Assembly (NCBI GenBank): GCA_002070415.1 | Contig: MWDF01000006.1 | Coordinates: 1 to 64,000 of the forward strand | Direction of reading: 5' to 3' | Origin: Firmicutes bacterium ADurb.Bin153 | GTDB taxonomy: Bacteria; Bacillota; DTU025; MWDF01 | Length of the DNA stretch: 64,000 nt | Part shown: positions 13,851 through 19,844 of the stretch, one piece after another | How the letters are laid out: every line of letters starts with the position of its first letter | How positions within the stretch are numbered: position 1 is the first letter of the stretch | Made by a program: the position numbers and the translations under genes | The notes under the pieces: model-generated | What the model was told of the DNA's origin: nothing | What the model saw: the letters and a program-made list of their open reading frames with translations, nothing else | Databases searched by the model: none

Positions 13851-14065
13851 GGTCCGCCGTTTAGTTTTACCCTATTCCACACCGGCACGGCATTTAGTGA
13901 TATCTATCACGGAGTCATCGGTGTAGGCATCGTCATCTGCGCCGATCCAGAATATGCATTGAGAAGGGGCAATACCGATCTTTACCGGGACTGCTCCTTC
14001 TCCGCCGAGTATTCAAGTATCGGTAGACTGGTTTCGATTATCGTCCGTCAGGACGGTTCTTCCTG

Positions 14066-14287
14066 TTATGCCGCCTCAAGGAAATTCGCTATATCCCCTA
14101 CGGTCTTGAACTTCCCCAGATCCTCGTCCGATATCTTGACACCGAACGTGTCCTCGATGCACATCGTTATCTCAACCATGTCGAGGGAATCCGCCTTCAG
14201 GTCGTCCGTTATGCTGCTCTTCTCGCTGATGTTCTTGCATTCGATCCCCAGTTTGTCGGCTATTAGCTTCTTCAGTTCCTCTATCAA
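14066..14287 (-). CDS. acpP: Acyl carrier protein
   Basis: 73-residue acidic protein carrying growing acyl chains on a phosphopantetheine attached to the Ser of ADSLDMVE. The helix II and III pattern and length are typical. It starts with TTG at 14287 behind AGGAGG. It is the last gene of the fab operon, 13 nt after fabZ. A weak hairpin (CGTCC/GGACG near 14045) is the only terminator candidate downstream. Confidence 0.95.
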   Translation of the reverse strand: MIEELKKLIADKLGIECKNISEKSSITDDLKADSLDMVEITMCIEDTFGVKISDEDLGKFKTVGDIANFLEAA

Positions 14288-14300
14288 TGATTTCTCCTCC

Positions 14301-14732
14301 TTATTTGCCTATCGCAAACGTAATCTCCGCTTCGGCGGCAAGCTCTCCTTCATAGAAGACCTTGCCCTTTGCCTTCGCGAACGGTCCGAAAACCTTCTCT
14401 ATGATCGTCTCCACTTTCATAACCCCGCCCGGCGTCACCTTCTTCCTGAATCTTGCCCTATCTATAGCTGCAAGGAAGCCCAGCCTTCCGGCCTGCCCCC
14501 CTCCTGCCATCACAGCATAGCCCCCGGCCTGGGCCATCGCCTCCAGCATCAGCACTCCGGGCATTATCGGAGTCTTTGGGAAATGCCCTTTGAAGAACTC
14601 CTTCCCCTCGCTCACGTCGAACTCGCAGACCGCCCACTCACCTTCTTTGAAATCGATTACCCTGTCGATGAACAAGAAGGGCTCCCTGTGCGGCAGCACC
14701 TCTTTTATGCGCGGTGCCTTGTCCCCGCTCAT
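14301..14732 (-). CDS. fabZ: 3-hydroxyacyl-ACP dehydratase FabZ
   Basis: Dehydrates 3-hydroxyacyl-ACP to trans-2-enoyl-ACP. Hot-dog fold protein with LPHREPFLFIDRV and the catalytic block GHFPKTPIMPGVLMLEAMAQ (His and downstream Glu). The 143-residue length is normal. Its ATG overlaps the fabF stop (ATGA), and acpP follows after 13 nt. No FabA is seen in the window, so unsaturated fatty acid branching cannot be judged. Confidence 0.95.
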   Translation of the reverse strand: MSGDKAPRIKEVLPHREPFLFIDRVIDFKEGEWAVCEFDVSEGKEFFKGHFPKTPIMPGVLMLEAMAQAGGYAVMAGGGQAGRLGFLAAIDRARFRKKVTPGGVMKVETIIEKVFGPFAKAKGKVFYEGELAAEAEITFAIGK

Positions 14733-15997
14733 CTGCCCTCACGCTCCTTGTGCGAACCGGCCTTCACCGATGCTTTCGTAAGTGCCAGGCATGCATTGTG
14801 GCCTCCGAAACCGAGCGAATTGCTGATGACCGCCGCAAGGTCGGCCTTCCTGGCCCGGTTGGGGACGTAGTCCAGGTCGCAGTCCGGGTCCGGCTCAGAA
14901 TAGTTGGTCGTGGGAGGGATGAAGCCCTCGTACAGTGCAAGCGCCGAGAAGGCCGCCTCCAACGCCCCGGCAGCGCCCAGGAGATGTCCGGTCATGGATT
15001 TGGTGGAGCTGACCGGCACGTCGTAGGCTGTGTCCCCGAACGTCTTCTTTATGGCGAGCGTCTCGTATCTGTCGTTTAGCGGAGTGCTCGTGCCGTGCGC
15101 GTTTATGTAGCCGATGTCTCCCGCCGTGAGCCCTGCGTCCCTGATCGCAAGCGACATCGCCCTCGATGCGCCCTTGCCTTCCGGGTCGGGGCTGGTTATA
15201 TGGTACGCGTCGTCCGTGCAGCCGTATCCGGCCAGCTCGGCATAGATCCTGGCGCCTCTTTCGAGGGCCTTGTCGTATCTTTCCAGCACGAGCACGGCCG
15301 AGCCCTCGCCGATCACGAAACCCGACCTGCGCTTGTCGAAAGGCAAGGACGCCGACGAAGGGTCCTTTGCGGTCGAAAGCGCGTTCATGTTCCAGAAACC
15401 CGATATCGCAGCCCTCGTCAGCGGGGCTTCCGCCCCTCCGGCAAAGGCCATGTCGATGTATCCGTGCCTTATCGCCCTCATGGCCTCCCCTATCGAGTTC
15501 GCCCCGGAGGCGCACGCGGTCACGATGCACATGGAAGGGCCGGTGATGCGAAAGTGGTTCGAAACGTTGCCCGCTGCCATGTTGCCGATTAGCATCGGTA
15601 TGAAAAGCGGGGAGACCCGGTCCGGCCCCTTCTCGAGGAGCTTCTTGTGCTCCTCCTCCAGCGTCTTCATGCCGCCTATGCCCGACCCTATGTAGGATCC
15701 GCACATCCCGGGCTCATAGGTACCCTCATTGAGCCCTGAATCCCCGTATGCCGAAACGGCCGCGGCCATGGATAGCTGGGAGAACCTATCCATCCTCCTC
15801 GCGTCGCGCCTGTCGAAGTACGCGCTTGGGTCGAAATCCCTCACCTCGGCGCCGATGTCGGTTCCCAGCCCCGCCGTGTCCAGACCTTCTATCCTTCCGA
15901 TGCCGCTTACGCCCTCAAGCAGCGATGCTGTGACCGTCTTGGGGTCGCACCCGATGGGGCTCATGATACCTATGCCCGTAATAGCTACTCTGTTCAT
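14729..15997 (-). CDS. fabF: 3-oxoacyl-ACP synthase II FabF
   Basis: Condensing enzyme that elongates acyl-ACP with malonyl-ACP. The catalytic triad is visible: Cys in VTACASGANSIGEAM, His in NAHGTSTPLND, His in STKSMTGHLLGAAGALE. The GFGGHNACLAL tail is typical. ATG at 15997, five bases after AGGAGG, is preferred over the adjacent TTG. Length about 422. Six nt separate it from fabG, and it overlaps fabZ by 4 nt. Confidence 0.95.
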   Translation of the reverse strand: MNRVAITGIGIMSPIGCDPKTVTASLLEGVSGIGRIEGLDTAGLGTDIGAEVRDFDPSAYFDRRDARRMDRFSQLSMAAAVSAYGDSGLNEGTYEPGMCGSYIGSGIGGMKTLEEEHKKLLEKGPDRVSPLFIPMLIGNMAAGNVSNHFRITGPSMCIVTACASGANSIGEAMRAIRHGYIDMAFAGGAEAPLTRAAISGFWNMNALSTAKDPSSASLPFDKRRSGFVIGEGSAVLVLERYDKALERGARIYAELAGYGCTDDAYHITSPDPEGKGASRAMSLAIRDAGLTAGDIGYINAHGTSTPLNDRYETLAIKKTFGDTAYDVPVSSTKSMTGHLLGAAGALEAAFSALALYEGFIPPTTNYSEPDPDCDLDYVPNRARKADLAAVISNSLGFGGHNACLALTKASVKAGSHKEREGR

Positions 15998-16006
15998 CAA
16001 AGCCTC

Positions 16007-16804
16007 CTAAATCGTGAGTCCTCCGTCTATGCCTATGACCTGCCCGGTGATGTACGACGCCGAATCAGAGACGAGGAAGCAGACCAGCTCCGCGACCTCG
16101 CGCGGATCGCCGAACCTCCTTAGCGATATCGCCTCCAGGGCCTGCTGCTTCCTTGCCTCGGCGAGTCCTTGCGTCATGTCGGTCTCTATGAAACCGGGGG
16201 CCACAGCGTTCACCCTTATCGAGCGAGAGCCCAGCTCCTTTGCTGCCGTCAGCGTCAGGCCGAGCATCCCGGCCTTCGCGGAAGAGTAGTTGGCCTGCCC
16301 GGCGTTTCCCCTCACCCCCGCCACCGAGGATATGTTGACTATCGAGCCGCTGCGGGCCTTCAGCATGAAGGGGACCACCGCCTTCGTCATATAGAAGGCG
16401 GACCCCAAGTCGTTCTTCAGGACGGAATCGAAGTCCTCGGCATCCATGCGCAGTATCAGCGAATCCTTCACCGACCCCGCGTTGTTTACGAGCGCGTCAA
16501 TCCTGCCCGTCTTTTGTGCTGCATCAAGGACCATGCTCTCGCATTCGGAAGGGACCGAAACGTCTGCCTTGATGATTTCCACGACCGTCTTCCCGAAGCC
16601 TGCGGCAAGCGCCGCCTCCTTCGCCTCAAGCGCCGCCTCCGCCGCCTTCTTCCCGTCGGACCTGTAGTTTATGAATACGTCCATGCCCGAAGCGGCGAGT
16701 CTTACGGCAATGGCCCTTCCTATCCCCCTGGAAGCCCCCGTGACGATCGCGGTCCTGCCCTCCAGCCCGATGAATGACGATTCCCTCGTCTCACGGCCTG
16801 ACAT
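16007..16804 (-). CDS. fabG: 3-oxoacyl-ACP reductase FabG
   Basis: NADPH-dependent SDR reducing 3-oxoacyl-ACP. It has TGASRGIG for nucleotide binding, NNAG, catalytic Ser in NISSVAG, YSSAK (YxxxK) and APGFIETDM. At 265 residues it is slightly longer than most FabG (about 247), because of an N-terminal extension of about 12 residues and a small insertion around residues 60-70 (AKEAALAAGFGKTVVE). The ATG has AAGGAGG upstream and overlaps fabK by 14 nt. Confidence 0.93.
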   Translation of the reverse strand: MSGRETRESSFIGLEGRTAIVTGASRGIGRAIAVRLAASGMDVFINYRSDGKKAAEAALEAKEAALAAGFGKTVVEIIKADVSVPSECESMVLDAAQKTGRIDALVNNAGSVKDSLILRMDAEDFDSVLKNDLGSAFYMTKAVVPFMLKARSGSIVNISSVAGVRGNAGQANYSSAKAGMLGLTLTAAKELGSRSIRVNAVAPGFIETDMTQGLAEARKQQALEAISLRRFGDPREVAELVCFLVSDSASYITGQVIGIDGGLTI

Positions 16805-17762
16805 CGCATGCCTCCTTGTCCGCCCACCTGTTCAGGGCCGAAGATAATGTCCTCTCCGCTTCCGCTGCCATGCAGGCGATTATCTCCCCTGCTTTGGCCT
16901 CCTTCTTGAGAAGCCCGGCTATCTGTCCTGCCATGAAGGTCCCCGACTCGACGTCCCCGTCCTTCACCGCCTTCCTGAGAGAGCCCGCCGCTGCCGCCTC
17001 CAATTCGTCCTGCGAGGCGCCTGCTTTCTCCATATCCAGGTACTGCCTCGTAAACGGCGTCTTTATCGACCTTACGGGCCTTCCCGAACTGCGACCTGTG
17101 ACCACCGTGTCGCAATCGCCGGCTTTTAGCACCTTCTGCTTGTAGACGGGGTGTATGCCGCACTCATCGGCCACAAGGAAGCACGTGCCGCACTGTACAC
17201 CCTCTGCGCCCAGGCAGAATGCGGCCGCCATGCCCCTGCCGTCTGCGATGCCTCCCGCCGCCACTACCGGCACGCCAAGCGCATCCGCCATCTGCGGCAC
17301 CAGGGCCATGGTAGTGCTCTCACCGATGTGTCCGCCGGCTTCGCACCCTTCGGCTATCACGGCGTCCGCTCCCATCCTCTCCAGCCTTAGTCCCAGCGCG
17401 ACCGATGATGCCACCGGCAGGACCTTTATGCCCTTCGACTTGAGGGCCTCCATGTACTTGCCCGGGCTTCCCGCGCCCGTCGTCACAACGCCCACACCCT
17501 CTTCAATGACCGTCGAGATTATCTCGTCCGCATAGGGGCTGAGGAGCATTACGTTGACGCCGAACGGTTTTCCGGTGAGCGTCCTCGCCCTCCTTATCTC
17601 CTGCCTCACCGCTTCCGAAGGGGCGGCCCCGGCTGCGATCAGCCCGAGTCCGCCGGCTTCAGAGACTGCGGCAGCGAGCGCCGCGTCCGCGACCCAGGCC
17701 ATCCCGCCCTGTATGATCGGGTAATCTATACCCAGAAGGTCCGTCAGCCTCGTCCTAAGCAT
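16791..17762 (-). CDS. fabK: Enoyl-ACP reductase II (FMN-dependent FabK)
   Basis: Final reduction step of the elongation cycle, by a flavin TIM-barrel enzyme related to nitronate monooxygenases. Seen: YPIIQGGMAWVAD at the start of the barrel, PFGVNVMLL, the catalytic His in EGCEAGGHIGE, and VVAAGGIADGRG and CLGAEGVQCGTCF for FMN phosphate binding. Length 323 and operon position between fabH and fabG favour FabK over nitronate monooxygenase. No FabI-type reductase is seen in the window, so this is probably the main enoyl reductase; FabK enzymes are insensitive to triclosan. Confidence 0.93.
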   Translation of the reverse strand: MLRTRLTDLLGIDYPIIQGGMAWVADAALAAAVSEAGGLGLIAAGAAPSEAVRQEIRRARTLTGKPFGVNVMLLSPYADEIISTVIEEGVGVVTTGAGSPGKYMEALKSKGIKVLPVASSVALGLRLERMGADAVIAEGCEAGGHIGESTTMALVPQMADALGVPVVAAGGIADGRGMAAAFCLGAEGVQCGTCFLVADECGIHPVYKQKVLKAGDCDTVVTGRSSGRPVRSIKTPFTRQYLDMEKAGASQDELEAAAAGSLRKAVKDGDVESGTFMAGQIAGLLKKEAKAGEIIACMAAEAERTLSSALNRWADKEACDVRP

Positions 17763-18759
17763 GGTTTGCCTCCTGCCATCTGATAAGCGCCGAACCGTAT
17801 GTCAGCCCCGCTCCGAACCCGACCGCCAAAAGCAGCTGCCCCTGCCGGAGCCCGCCCGAGCGGTTAAGCTCGTCCAGTCCTATTGGTATGCTGGAGCTGG
17901 ACGTGTTCCCGTATTTGTCAAGGGTCACCAGCACCTTCGAAGGGTCCAGCCCGTACTTCTCGACTACCGATTCGATGATCCTGGCGTTCGCCTGGTGGGG
18001 CAGTATGTGGGAGACCTCGTCGATTCTTAGCCCTCCCTTGGCGAGGACCTTGTCTATCGCCTCGGGCATCGCCCTGACCGCGAACTTGTACACTTCCTTG
18101 CCGTCCATGTGTATGAACCTGTCGGACCTAGCGTCCAGGATGTCCGGCGCGGGCTCAGGGCATACCGGGTTGATGGCTGCGAGCGCCTTCGACACCAGAA
18201 GCGAGGCCCCGGTGCCGTCGGAAGCGAGGTAGGTCTCCATTATCCCGGGACCTTCGGTCGCGCCTATCACGACGGCGCCCGCCCCGTCGCCGAAGAGCAC
18301 GCATGTGTTCCTGTCCGTGAAGTCGGTTATCTTCGTGAGTGTCTCGGAGCATACGAGCAGCGCCTTCTTCGCCGCGCCCGCTTCCACGTACCTGCGGGCA
18401 ATGTCCAGCCCGTATATGAATCCGCTGCACGCCGCGTTTATGTCGAAAGCGAAGGCTCTCGCAGCCTTCAGCCTTCCCTGCAGTATGCAGGAGATCGATG
18501 GTGTGAAATAATCCGGGGTGACCGTGGACACTATTATCAGGTCGAGCTCCGAGGCCGAGCACCCCGCGTTCTCCAGCGCGGCCAAAGCGGCGCGCTCCGC
18601 CATATGCCAGGTACTCTCGCCGTCGCTGAACCTTCTTTGCCTGATCCCGGTCCTTGATACTATCCAGTCGTCCGTCGTCTCCACCAGAACCGCCATGTCC
18701 TCGTTGGTAACGCGCTTGTCGGGAACGTAGCTCCCGGTACCTATGATGCCAGCTTTCAA
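17755..18759 (-). CDS. fabH: 3-oxoacyl-ACP synthase III FabH
   Basis: Initiates fatty acid synthesis by condensing an acyl-CoA primer with malonyl-ACP. Catalytic residues: Cys in INAACSGFIYGL, His in ILPHQANARI, Asn in YGNTSSSSIP. TTDDWIVSRTGIRQRR near the N-terminus and the terminal GFGAGLTYGSALIRW are standard. It begins with TTG at 18759 behind AAGGGGTG. It is the first gene of the six-gene fab operon and overlaps fabK by 8 nt. A 29-bp near-palindrome lies 40 nt upstream. Confidence 0.95.
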   Translation of the reverse strand: MKAGIIGTGSYVPDKRVTNEDMAVLVETTDDWIVSRTGIRQRRFSDGESTWHMAERAALAALENAGCSASELDLIIVSTVTPDYFTPSISCILQGRLKAARAFAFDINAACSGFIYGLDIARRYVEAGAAKKALLVCSETLTKITDFTDRNTCVLFGDGAGAVVIGATEGPGIMETYLASDGTGASLLVSKALAAINPVCPEPAPDILDARSDRFIHMDGKEVYKFAVRAMPEAIDKVLAKGGLRIDEVSHILPHQANARIIESVVEKYGLDPSKVLVTLDKYGNTSSSSIPIGLDELNRSGGLRQGQLLLAVGFGAGLTYGSALIRWQEANHA

Positions 18760-18798
18760 AACAACACCCCTTGATTGACGGGCCGCGCGGCCTTATGA

Positions 18799-18827
18799 TT
18801 TGAATGTCTGAAATTTAGATATTCAAA
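18799..18827. promoter_or_regulatory. 29-bp near-palindrome between fabH and fabD, candidate fatty-acid operator
   Basis: Arms TTTGAATGTCTGAA and TTTAGATATTCAAA are inverted copies with two mismatched pairs around a central A. It is the only AT-rich block in the divergent fabH-fabD spacer and lies 40 nt from the fabH start and about 90 nt from fabD. TTTGA...TCAAA half-sites recall the FabT-type operators of fatty acid genes. The actual regulator is not in the window. A TTGAAT -35-like hexamer falls inside the element on either strand. Confidence 0.6.
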
Positions 18828-18914
18828 CTATATTTACATGCCCGGTGGGTTGTCAAGAAGAATTCGTTCCGTACGGATATTCATGCGTCACCGAGGGCGG
18901 GAAGGTGGATCGGA

Positions 18915-19844
18915 TTGGGTAAGAGGGCCGTGATATTCCCCGGACAGGGCGCACAGTACGAAGGAATGGGCAAAGAGTTGTACGACGGCTTCGGGGAGGT
19001 AAGGGATATATATTCCGCCGTTTCGGATGCAGCCGGCTTCGACGTCGGCGAGGTCAGCTTCGGAGGCAGGGTCGGCGACCTGGGCAAGACGGGCTATTCA
19101 CAGCCTGCGATATTCGCCATGAGCCTGGCCGGTTTTGCGGTGTACAGGAAGATGGGCGGCACGTTGGACGGCGTCACGGGTTTTTCCCTTGGCGAATGCA
19201 CGGCCGTCTGCGCGGCCGGGGGGCTCGACCTTGACGAGGGCGCCTTCATGGTGGCGGCAAGGGCGAGGGCGATGCAGAAGGAGGCAGAGGCATGCTCGGG
19301 TTCCATGTACGCCGTAATGGGAGCGTCCGAATGTGCGATCAGGGATGCGATCGCAGGATCGGGCGGCTATGCGGAGATGGTCAACTTCAACTGTCCGGGC
19401 CAGGTCGTAATCGCGGGCGAGACAGGAGCGGTCCAAAAGGCCGCTAGCGCGCTGCAAGCGTCGGGCTTCAAGGCCGTGAAGCTCAACGTCAACGCCGCTT
19501 TCCACAGCAAGCTCATGGAAAACGCCGCATCCGGCTTCTCCGGGGAGCTGGGCAGGCTGTCGTCGTTCAGGAAGTTCGACGTGGAGGTCTTCTCCAACGT
19601 CACCGGTTCGCTATTGACGCCGGATGTTAGCCCTTCTGATTATTTCCGCACCCAGATGCTGAGCCCCGTGAGGTGGCAGGCTATCATCGAGGAGATGATA
19701 AGGGGCGGCTACGACGATTTCGTGGAGATAGGCCCGTCCAAGGTCCTGTCGGGGATGATAAGGAGGATATCGAAGGAGGTCTCTGTAAGGAACGCCGAGG
19801 ATCCGAAGGGATTCGATGCGCTTTTCGTGCACTTGCCCAACTAG
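18915..19844 (+). CDS. fabD: Malonyl-CoA:ACP transacylase FabD
   Basis: Loads malonyl groups onto ACP. FPGQGAQYEGMGKE at the N-terminus, the nucleophile in GFSLGE, and the catalytic His in NAAFHSKLM are all present. The 309-residue length is normal. TTG at 18915 with AAGGTGG upstream is the start. It is transcribed divergently from the rest of the fab cluster, an uncommon arrangement, and shares the palindrome in the spacer. The next plus-strand gene starts 59 nt after the stop. Confidence 0.94.
   Translation: MGKRAVIFPGQGAQYEGMGKELYDGFGEVRDIYSAVSDAAGFDVGEVSFGGRVGDLGKTGYSQPAIFAMSLAGFAVYRKMGGTLDGVTGFSLGECTAVCAAGGLDLDEGAFMVAARARAMQKEAEACSGSMYAVMGASECAIRDAIAGSGGYAEMVNFNCPGQVVIAGETGAVQKAASALQASGFKAVKLNVNAAFHSKLMENAASGFSGELGRLSSFRKFDVEVFSNVTGSLLTPDVSPSDYFRTQMLSPVRWQAIIEEMIRGGYDDFVEIGPSKVLSGMIRRISKEVSVRNAEDPKGFDALFVHLPN

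Follow-up and report, generated by a model that had tools for sequence, protein, structure and literature searches.

In the 64,000-nucleotide stretch of Firmicutes bacterium ADurb.Bin153 analysed here (contig MWDF01000006.1, positions 1 to 64,000; hereafter the window), the divergent genes fabH and fabD are separated by a spacer that contains a 29-bp near-palindrome (TTTGAATGTCTGAAATTTAGATATTCAAA, 18799-18827, no strand assigned). From sequence comparison, and with a probability of about 0.8, we read this element as a double operator of a FabT-type MarR repressor that is common to two promoters. The reading is supported because the element occurs together with a FabT-like gene at the fabH promoters of five relatives of the same order, in the same span and register and with box-pair scores (defined below) of 16-18 against 17 in the window.

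The element and two predicted promoters

An earlier note on this DNA had described a FabT-like palindrome in the promoter region between fabH (minus strand) and fabD (plus strand), and family models bear out both gene assignments. The palindrome itself is confirmed, with 12 of 14 pairs complementary, and extends as an inverted repeat to 19-nt arms (18794-18812 and 18814-18832, 79% match). Three 29-mers in the window score 12/14, and 11 of 40 shuffled windows had a best 29-mer of 12 or 13, whereas a score of 12 was attained in 6 of 20,000 dinucleotide shuffles of the 155-bp fabH/fabD spacer; the palindromy is therefore unremarkable for a 64-kb window and rare for the spacer.

The FabT-like character of the element was assessed with a box-pair score, in which two 13-bp FabT boxes (TTTGAnnnTCAAA) with centres 16 bp apart are each compared with TTTGANNNTCAAA (maximum 20). 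Box A (18815-18827; TTAGATATTCAAA, or TTTGAATATCTAA on the minus strand) agrees at 9/10 positions and box B (18799-18811; TTTGAATGTCTGA) at 8/10, neither box being assigned to a strand, so that the spacer has two FabT-type boxes, both imperfect. The resulting score of 17/20 was attained in none of the 20,000 spacer shuffles, and the element is the sole site in the window with a score of at least 15.

A consensus scan of positions 18600-19000 found two promoter-like sites, where shuffled sequence gave 0.2 on average. These predicted sigma70-type promoters face each other: one (18827-18856, minus strand; TTGACA-18-TATAGT, 11/12, laid out as in the relatives) reads left into fabH-fabK-fabG-fabF-fabZ-acpP, and the other (18771-18799, plus strand; TTGATT-17-TATGAT, 9/12) reads right into fabD. 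On either strand, the final T of the -10 hexamer doubles as the opening T of the element. The AT-rich element placed between the fab units by the earlier note is thus present, but the AT-rich stretch is longer than 29 bp and takes in both predicted -10 hexamers. If transcription starts about 7 bases downstream of the -10 hexamer, both predicted starts would fall within the element, near 18820 (minus) and 18806 (plus).

Conservation at fabH promoters of the order

We compared 12 genomes of the order, including that of the window (G000, 89% complete). In five relatives outside the genus (G003, G006, G007, G008 and G009), fabH, fabK and fabD lie in line, and a FabT-like MarR gene stands directly upstream of fabH in every one. 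All five fabH promoters carry TTTGR-N19-YCAAA, a 29-bp form running from the last -10 base in the register seen in the window, with TTTGR...YCAAA ends and box-pair sums of 16-18; the 8-14 kb surrounding fabH in each relative contain no other site of at least 16. The FabT-like operator proposed in the earlier note is supported by this agreement in span, register and end half-sites. The relatives differ from the window in that the FabT-like gene adjoins fabH, fabD is part of the row, with fabK and fabG on either side, and the element is much less palindromic overall, with no palindrome of at least 11/14 pairs in any of the five regions.

A pattern derived from the relatives matched five places without mismatch across the 12 genomes, all of them fabH promoters (G000, G003, G006, G007 and G009), and the G008 fabH promoter with one mismatch. 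At one mismatch, ten further places appeared elsewhere, at loci without a fab or FabT match, and the reversed control gave 6 rows over the 12 genomes. Within the window's genome the pattern matched one place, on both strands, and its reverse none. As background, among 80 fabH loci of other genomes (77 of them with the full 1300 nt of upstream sequence), one has TTTGR-N19-YCAAA in the 1300 nt before fabH.

The conservation concerns the element at the fabH promoter, and a comparable divergent fabH/fabD spacer was available from none of the other genomes; within the genus, the G002 contig begins inside fabH and G001 lacks the operon at this locus. On the G002 contig (C121, locus L011) fabG directly follows fabK with no fabD between them, and because of this arrangement fabD seems to have departed the gene row before the genus split. 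Two pieces of the same contig are identical to JAGOKM010000112.1, titled 'Bacillota bacterium isolate Go_SlDig_bin_374'. The contig being of the same genus, the genus is probably Bacillota, contrary to the earlier description of the genome as non-Firmicute.

A FabT-like gene elsewhere in the genome

No regulator gene was seen adjoining the element, as had been noted earlier, but an unlinked FabT-like MarR gene exists in the window's genome (contig C20, 28936-29442). Among solved structures its product comes closest to 6jbx ('Fatty acid biosynthesis transcriptional regulator', 8.6e-29; the second-best reaches 2.5e-9), which we take to be pneumococcal FabT, and among NCBIfam models FabT fits best (136 bits; the runner-up 41). 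The fab-linked protein of G006 behaves in the same way (5e-27, 144 bits). The recognition region of the C20 protein reads GTMTVAADRL, against GTLTASVNRL in the fab-linked proteins of G006-G009, and resembles that of a group within the phylum, GT[TV]TVTVDRL, whose members at loci L208, L209 and L212 have perfect boxes.

Across a phylum sample of 149 genomes, 17 encode a FabT-like protein with an E-value of 1e-18 or lower, and we examined 13 loci with such a gene for boxes (leaving out G000, G001, G003 and G004). A perfect TTTGANNNTCAAA lies within 150 bp upstream of the FabT-like frame at five of them (L203, L204, L208, L209 and L212), paired at L204 and L212 with an imperfect box inside 29 bp; at L200 and L202 a perfect box lies about 1.2 kb upstream of the frame. 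We also observed that two or three FabT-type boxes, some of them imperfect, stand in a row at the promoters of the FabT-like genes of L203, L204 and L212.

The C20 gene itself (L163, 8144-10214) lies between genes for a histidine phosphatase and a TspO/MBR-like protein, and like frames in the same order occur in G001 and G002 (L164 and L165), the membrane protein of G002 having no Pfam match. These neighbouring genes are possibly another target of the C20 protein.

Points against a FabT operator and alternative explanations

Several results weigh against this assignment. The link between the C20 protein and the element is the weakest step of the argument: the protein's 136 bits are under the NCBIfam FabT cut-off of 200 (as are the 144 bits of the fab-linked P0001), the gene tree is star-like and gives it no placement, and no FabT box was seen before its own gene (by eye, and with no pattern matches in L198 and L199). 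An ortholog with 92% identity is kept in G001, and because that genome lacks the fab operon, the C20 protein cannot serve this operon alone and performs another function, either instead or as well. Of the 13 phylum loci, eight have no perfect box in the 150 bp before the FabT-like gene, six of these having no perfect box at all, and four Fructobacillus loci with FabT beside fabH showed no FabT box at fabT. Within the order, the strict promoter TTGACA-N15-19-TATANTTTGR was found at fabH in G000, G006, G007 and G008 and is unmet in G003 and G009, whose fabH promoters have a differing -10. The 29-bp pattern search is partly circular, as the sites of the relatives and of the window supplied the pattern; it shows specificity and is no independent discovery. 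The inner halves of both boxes also deviate from the consensus, and no second convincing site was found before lipid genes of the window's genome among the 15 further one-mismatch places of the 13-bp box that were inspected.

The off-consensus inner halves and the retention of the C20 gene in G001, which yielded neither a close fabH nor a fabK, would also suit an operator of a regulator other than FabT, such as the product of a second MarR gene (G000, C1:49918) or an unrelated repressor that took the site over after fabT left the operon. We consider this unlikely, as the end half-sites, span and register agree with the FabT-linked fabH promoters and the recognition region of the C1 protein differs. 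FapR was rejected as the regulator: NF003359, presumably the FapR model, was unmatched in all 12 genomes of the order (that of the window being 89% complete), whereas it gave matches in 5 of 14 control genomes including Bacillus subtilis (above the cut-off in one).

The symmetry might instead be a by-product of face-to-face promoters with AT-rich -10 surroundings and involve no repressor, given that the element abuts both -10 hexamers and that two other 29-mers of the window are equally palindromic. This is quite improbable, since in the relatives the element, with the same half-sites spaced over 29 bp, follows a fabH promoter behind a FabT-like gene and does not lie between divergent fab genes, and since the box farther from the -10 scores higher in four of the five relatives (the two are equal in G006).

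An RNA role, as an attenuator or terminator hairpin in a leader transcript, is suggested by the folding of the 29-mer (-11.2 kcal/mol, z -4.89 for the plus strand; -4.8, z -2.91 for the minus strand), but the predicted leaders fold no better than shuffles (z 0.31 and -0.30) and the strong palindrome is missing from the relatives. Neither leader would contain the whole element, because the predicted starts lie inside it, and we rejected the hairpin as very improbable. Chance has a negligible likelihood, for although shuffled windows reach comparable palindromy, shuffled spacers do not reach the box-pair score, and the layout is conserved.

Proposed mechanism and known systems

From the element, the promoter-like sites, their conservation and the FabT-like gene, all of which were computed, we infer how a FabT-type operator might work at this position. 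MarR dimers bind palindromes with their recognition helices in consecutive major grooves (PMC5487221), and because of this geometry 29 bp would most likely take two dimers. Two repressor dimers on the two 13-bp boxes would cover the DNA from each -10 edge through both predicted starts, and could obstruct RNA polymerase simultaneously at both promoters, that of fabH (fabH-K-G-F-Z-acpP, presumably a single transcript) and that of fabD. The likely repressor would be the product of the unlinked C20 gene. By analogy with the studied FabT proteins, for which two papers report that acyl-ACP (acyl carrier protein) tightens binding to operators (PMC13046290, PMC9083066), long-chain acyl-ACP may act as co-repressor, which would place both transcription units under end-product feedback from a single site.

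The type of switch is already known. Published papers give a FabT probe as ANTTTGATTATCAAATT (PMC10138225) and print the FabT box as ANTTTGACTGTNAAATT (PMC8406281), and FabT control is described there from Lactobacillales, with the repressor on the same mRNA as its targets (PMC13046290, PMC9083066). The system in the window resembles that of Streptococcus pneumoniae, S. pyogenes, Enterococcus faecalis and Lactococcus lactis in its MarR-type repressor family and its palindromic boxes at type II fatty-acid gene promoters (PMC10138225, PMC8406281, PMC9083066). It differs in that fabH is the first gene of the minus-strand fab row, the FabT-like gene is unlinked and on another contig, and the double box lies between face-to-face promoters of divergent fab genes; a two-way layout whose likely regulator gene lies elsewhere makes it a variant. 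The literature searched showed no FabT operator flanked by divergent fab genes, which does not establish that there is none. The FapR operator has another sequence. FapR of Bacillus and its relatives is similar in controlling the transcription of fab genes scattered over the genome (PMC9083066), and differs in that its model is unmatched in this order.

Tentatively, a FabT-type repressor has gone from the operon and acts in trans on one symmetric pair of operator boxes, thereby shutting two overlapping promoters that face each other, with a second role preserving it in a sister species that lost the operon, an account that we regard as possible rather than probable. Such an arrangement would couple fabD to the other fatty-acid genes without a common transcript. 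The window, of 58.6% G+C and probably from Bacillota, shows an operator grammar that may be that of the Lactobacillales, with an uncoupled repressor and a single site for both promoters.

Fab genes not found in related genomes

The same-genus genome G001 is 98% complete and syntenic on both flanks (65-89% protein identity; 84% for the transporter), and the syntenic locus has no fabH, fabK, fabG or fabF and only a broken fabD. The broken remnant lies beside the transporter gene (L138, 8077-8520; contig C36). A genome-wide search of G001, which covered fabH, fabK and fabD, showed only distant FabH-like proteins (29% identity or less), no FabK and only pieces of fabD. A divergent pair of distant FabH-like synthases, with 27-30% identity to the FabH of the window, occurs in G000 (C3:74911-78253, L144) and is kept also in G001 without fabH (C31:114942-118284, L145).

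Outside the genus, G004 (97% complete) keeps a FabT-like gene (L166, 8648-9121; contig C6) with no close fabH, fabK or fabD found, and in G005 (93% complete) the FabT-like gene, fabH, fabK and fabD were all not found; the search in both covered these four genes, and other fatty-acid routes may be present. The persistence of FabT-like genes in G001 and G004 without close fabH or fabK makes other FabT targets a testable question.

Other sites and flanking genes

The motif was also sought before other lipid genes of the window's genome. Allowing one mismatch, the 13-bp box matched 22 places (reversed control, 10), of which, besides the element, 15 were inspected by eye (14 loci, and C27:10660 through L118) and 6 were not. 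The sole perfect place, C17:28910, lies within a long frame without a family match, and the box at C11:61359 is upstream of an SDR-family gene that falls under every cut-off shown, those of FabG models included. NCBIfam searches of five frames near four places (L215, L224, L226 and L227) left three frames unmatched; that at L226 is an SDR-family frame attaining no cut-off shown, and that at L224 a deacylase-like frame under the cut-off. TTTGA-N19-TCAAA has one further exact place in this genome, inside a reading frame (C5:16998), and 17 places at up to one mismatch (9 with the pattern reversed). A half-site pattern used at first (TTTGAATNTCTNAAA, two mismatches allowed) gave 7 rows, two of them the element, and 4 control rows.

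In five genomes of the order a TTGACA...TATAATTTGA promoter precedes another gene, which is probably that for ribosomal protein bS21 (rpsU), and the 29-bp form was found in none of the five. Directly past the -10 of that gene, TTTGA...TCAAA occurs within 27 bp in G011 (C235, L232) and G010 (C244, L233), and no FabT-like gene was found in either genome.

The minus-strand row of the window begins with fabH (beta-ketoacyl-ACP synthase III, 17755-18759; TIGR00747 and NF006829 above cut-off) and continues with fabK (enoyl-ACP reductase II, 16791-17762; TIGR03151 above cut-off), fabG (3-oxoacyl-ACP reductase, 16007-16804; NF009466 above cut-off, TIGR01830 just below), fabF (beta-ketoacyl-ACP synthase II, 14729-16000; TIGR03150 above cut-off), a fabZ-like dehydratase gene with a FabA-like domain (14301-14732) and an acpP-like acyl carrier protein gene (14066-14287). 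A plus-strand frame at 13959-14870 runs antisense to fabZ and acpP, and what it matches in relatives is the opposite strand of fab genes; it was therefore taken as spurious. On the plus strand, fabD (malonyl-CoA:ACP transacylase, 18915-19844; best match TIGR00128 at 222.5 bits, below the cut-off of 260.9) is followed by an AI-2E-family transporter gene. Within the spacer, a GC-rich inverted repeat (GGGCCGCGCGGCC) followed by T (18780-18793) falls inside the -35/-10 interval of the predicted fabD promoter and also within the predicted fabH leader.
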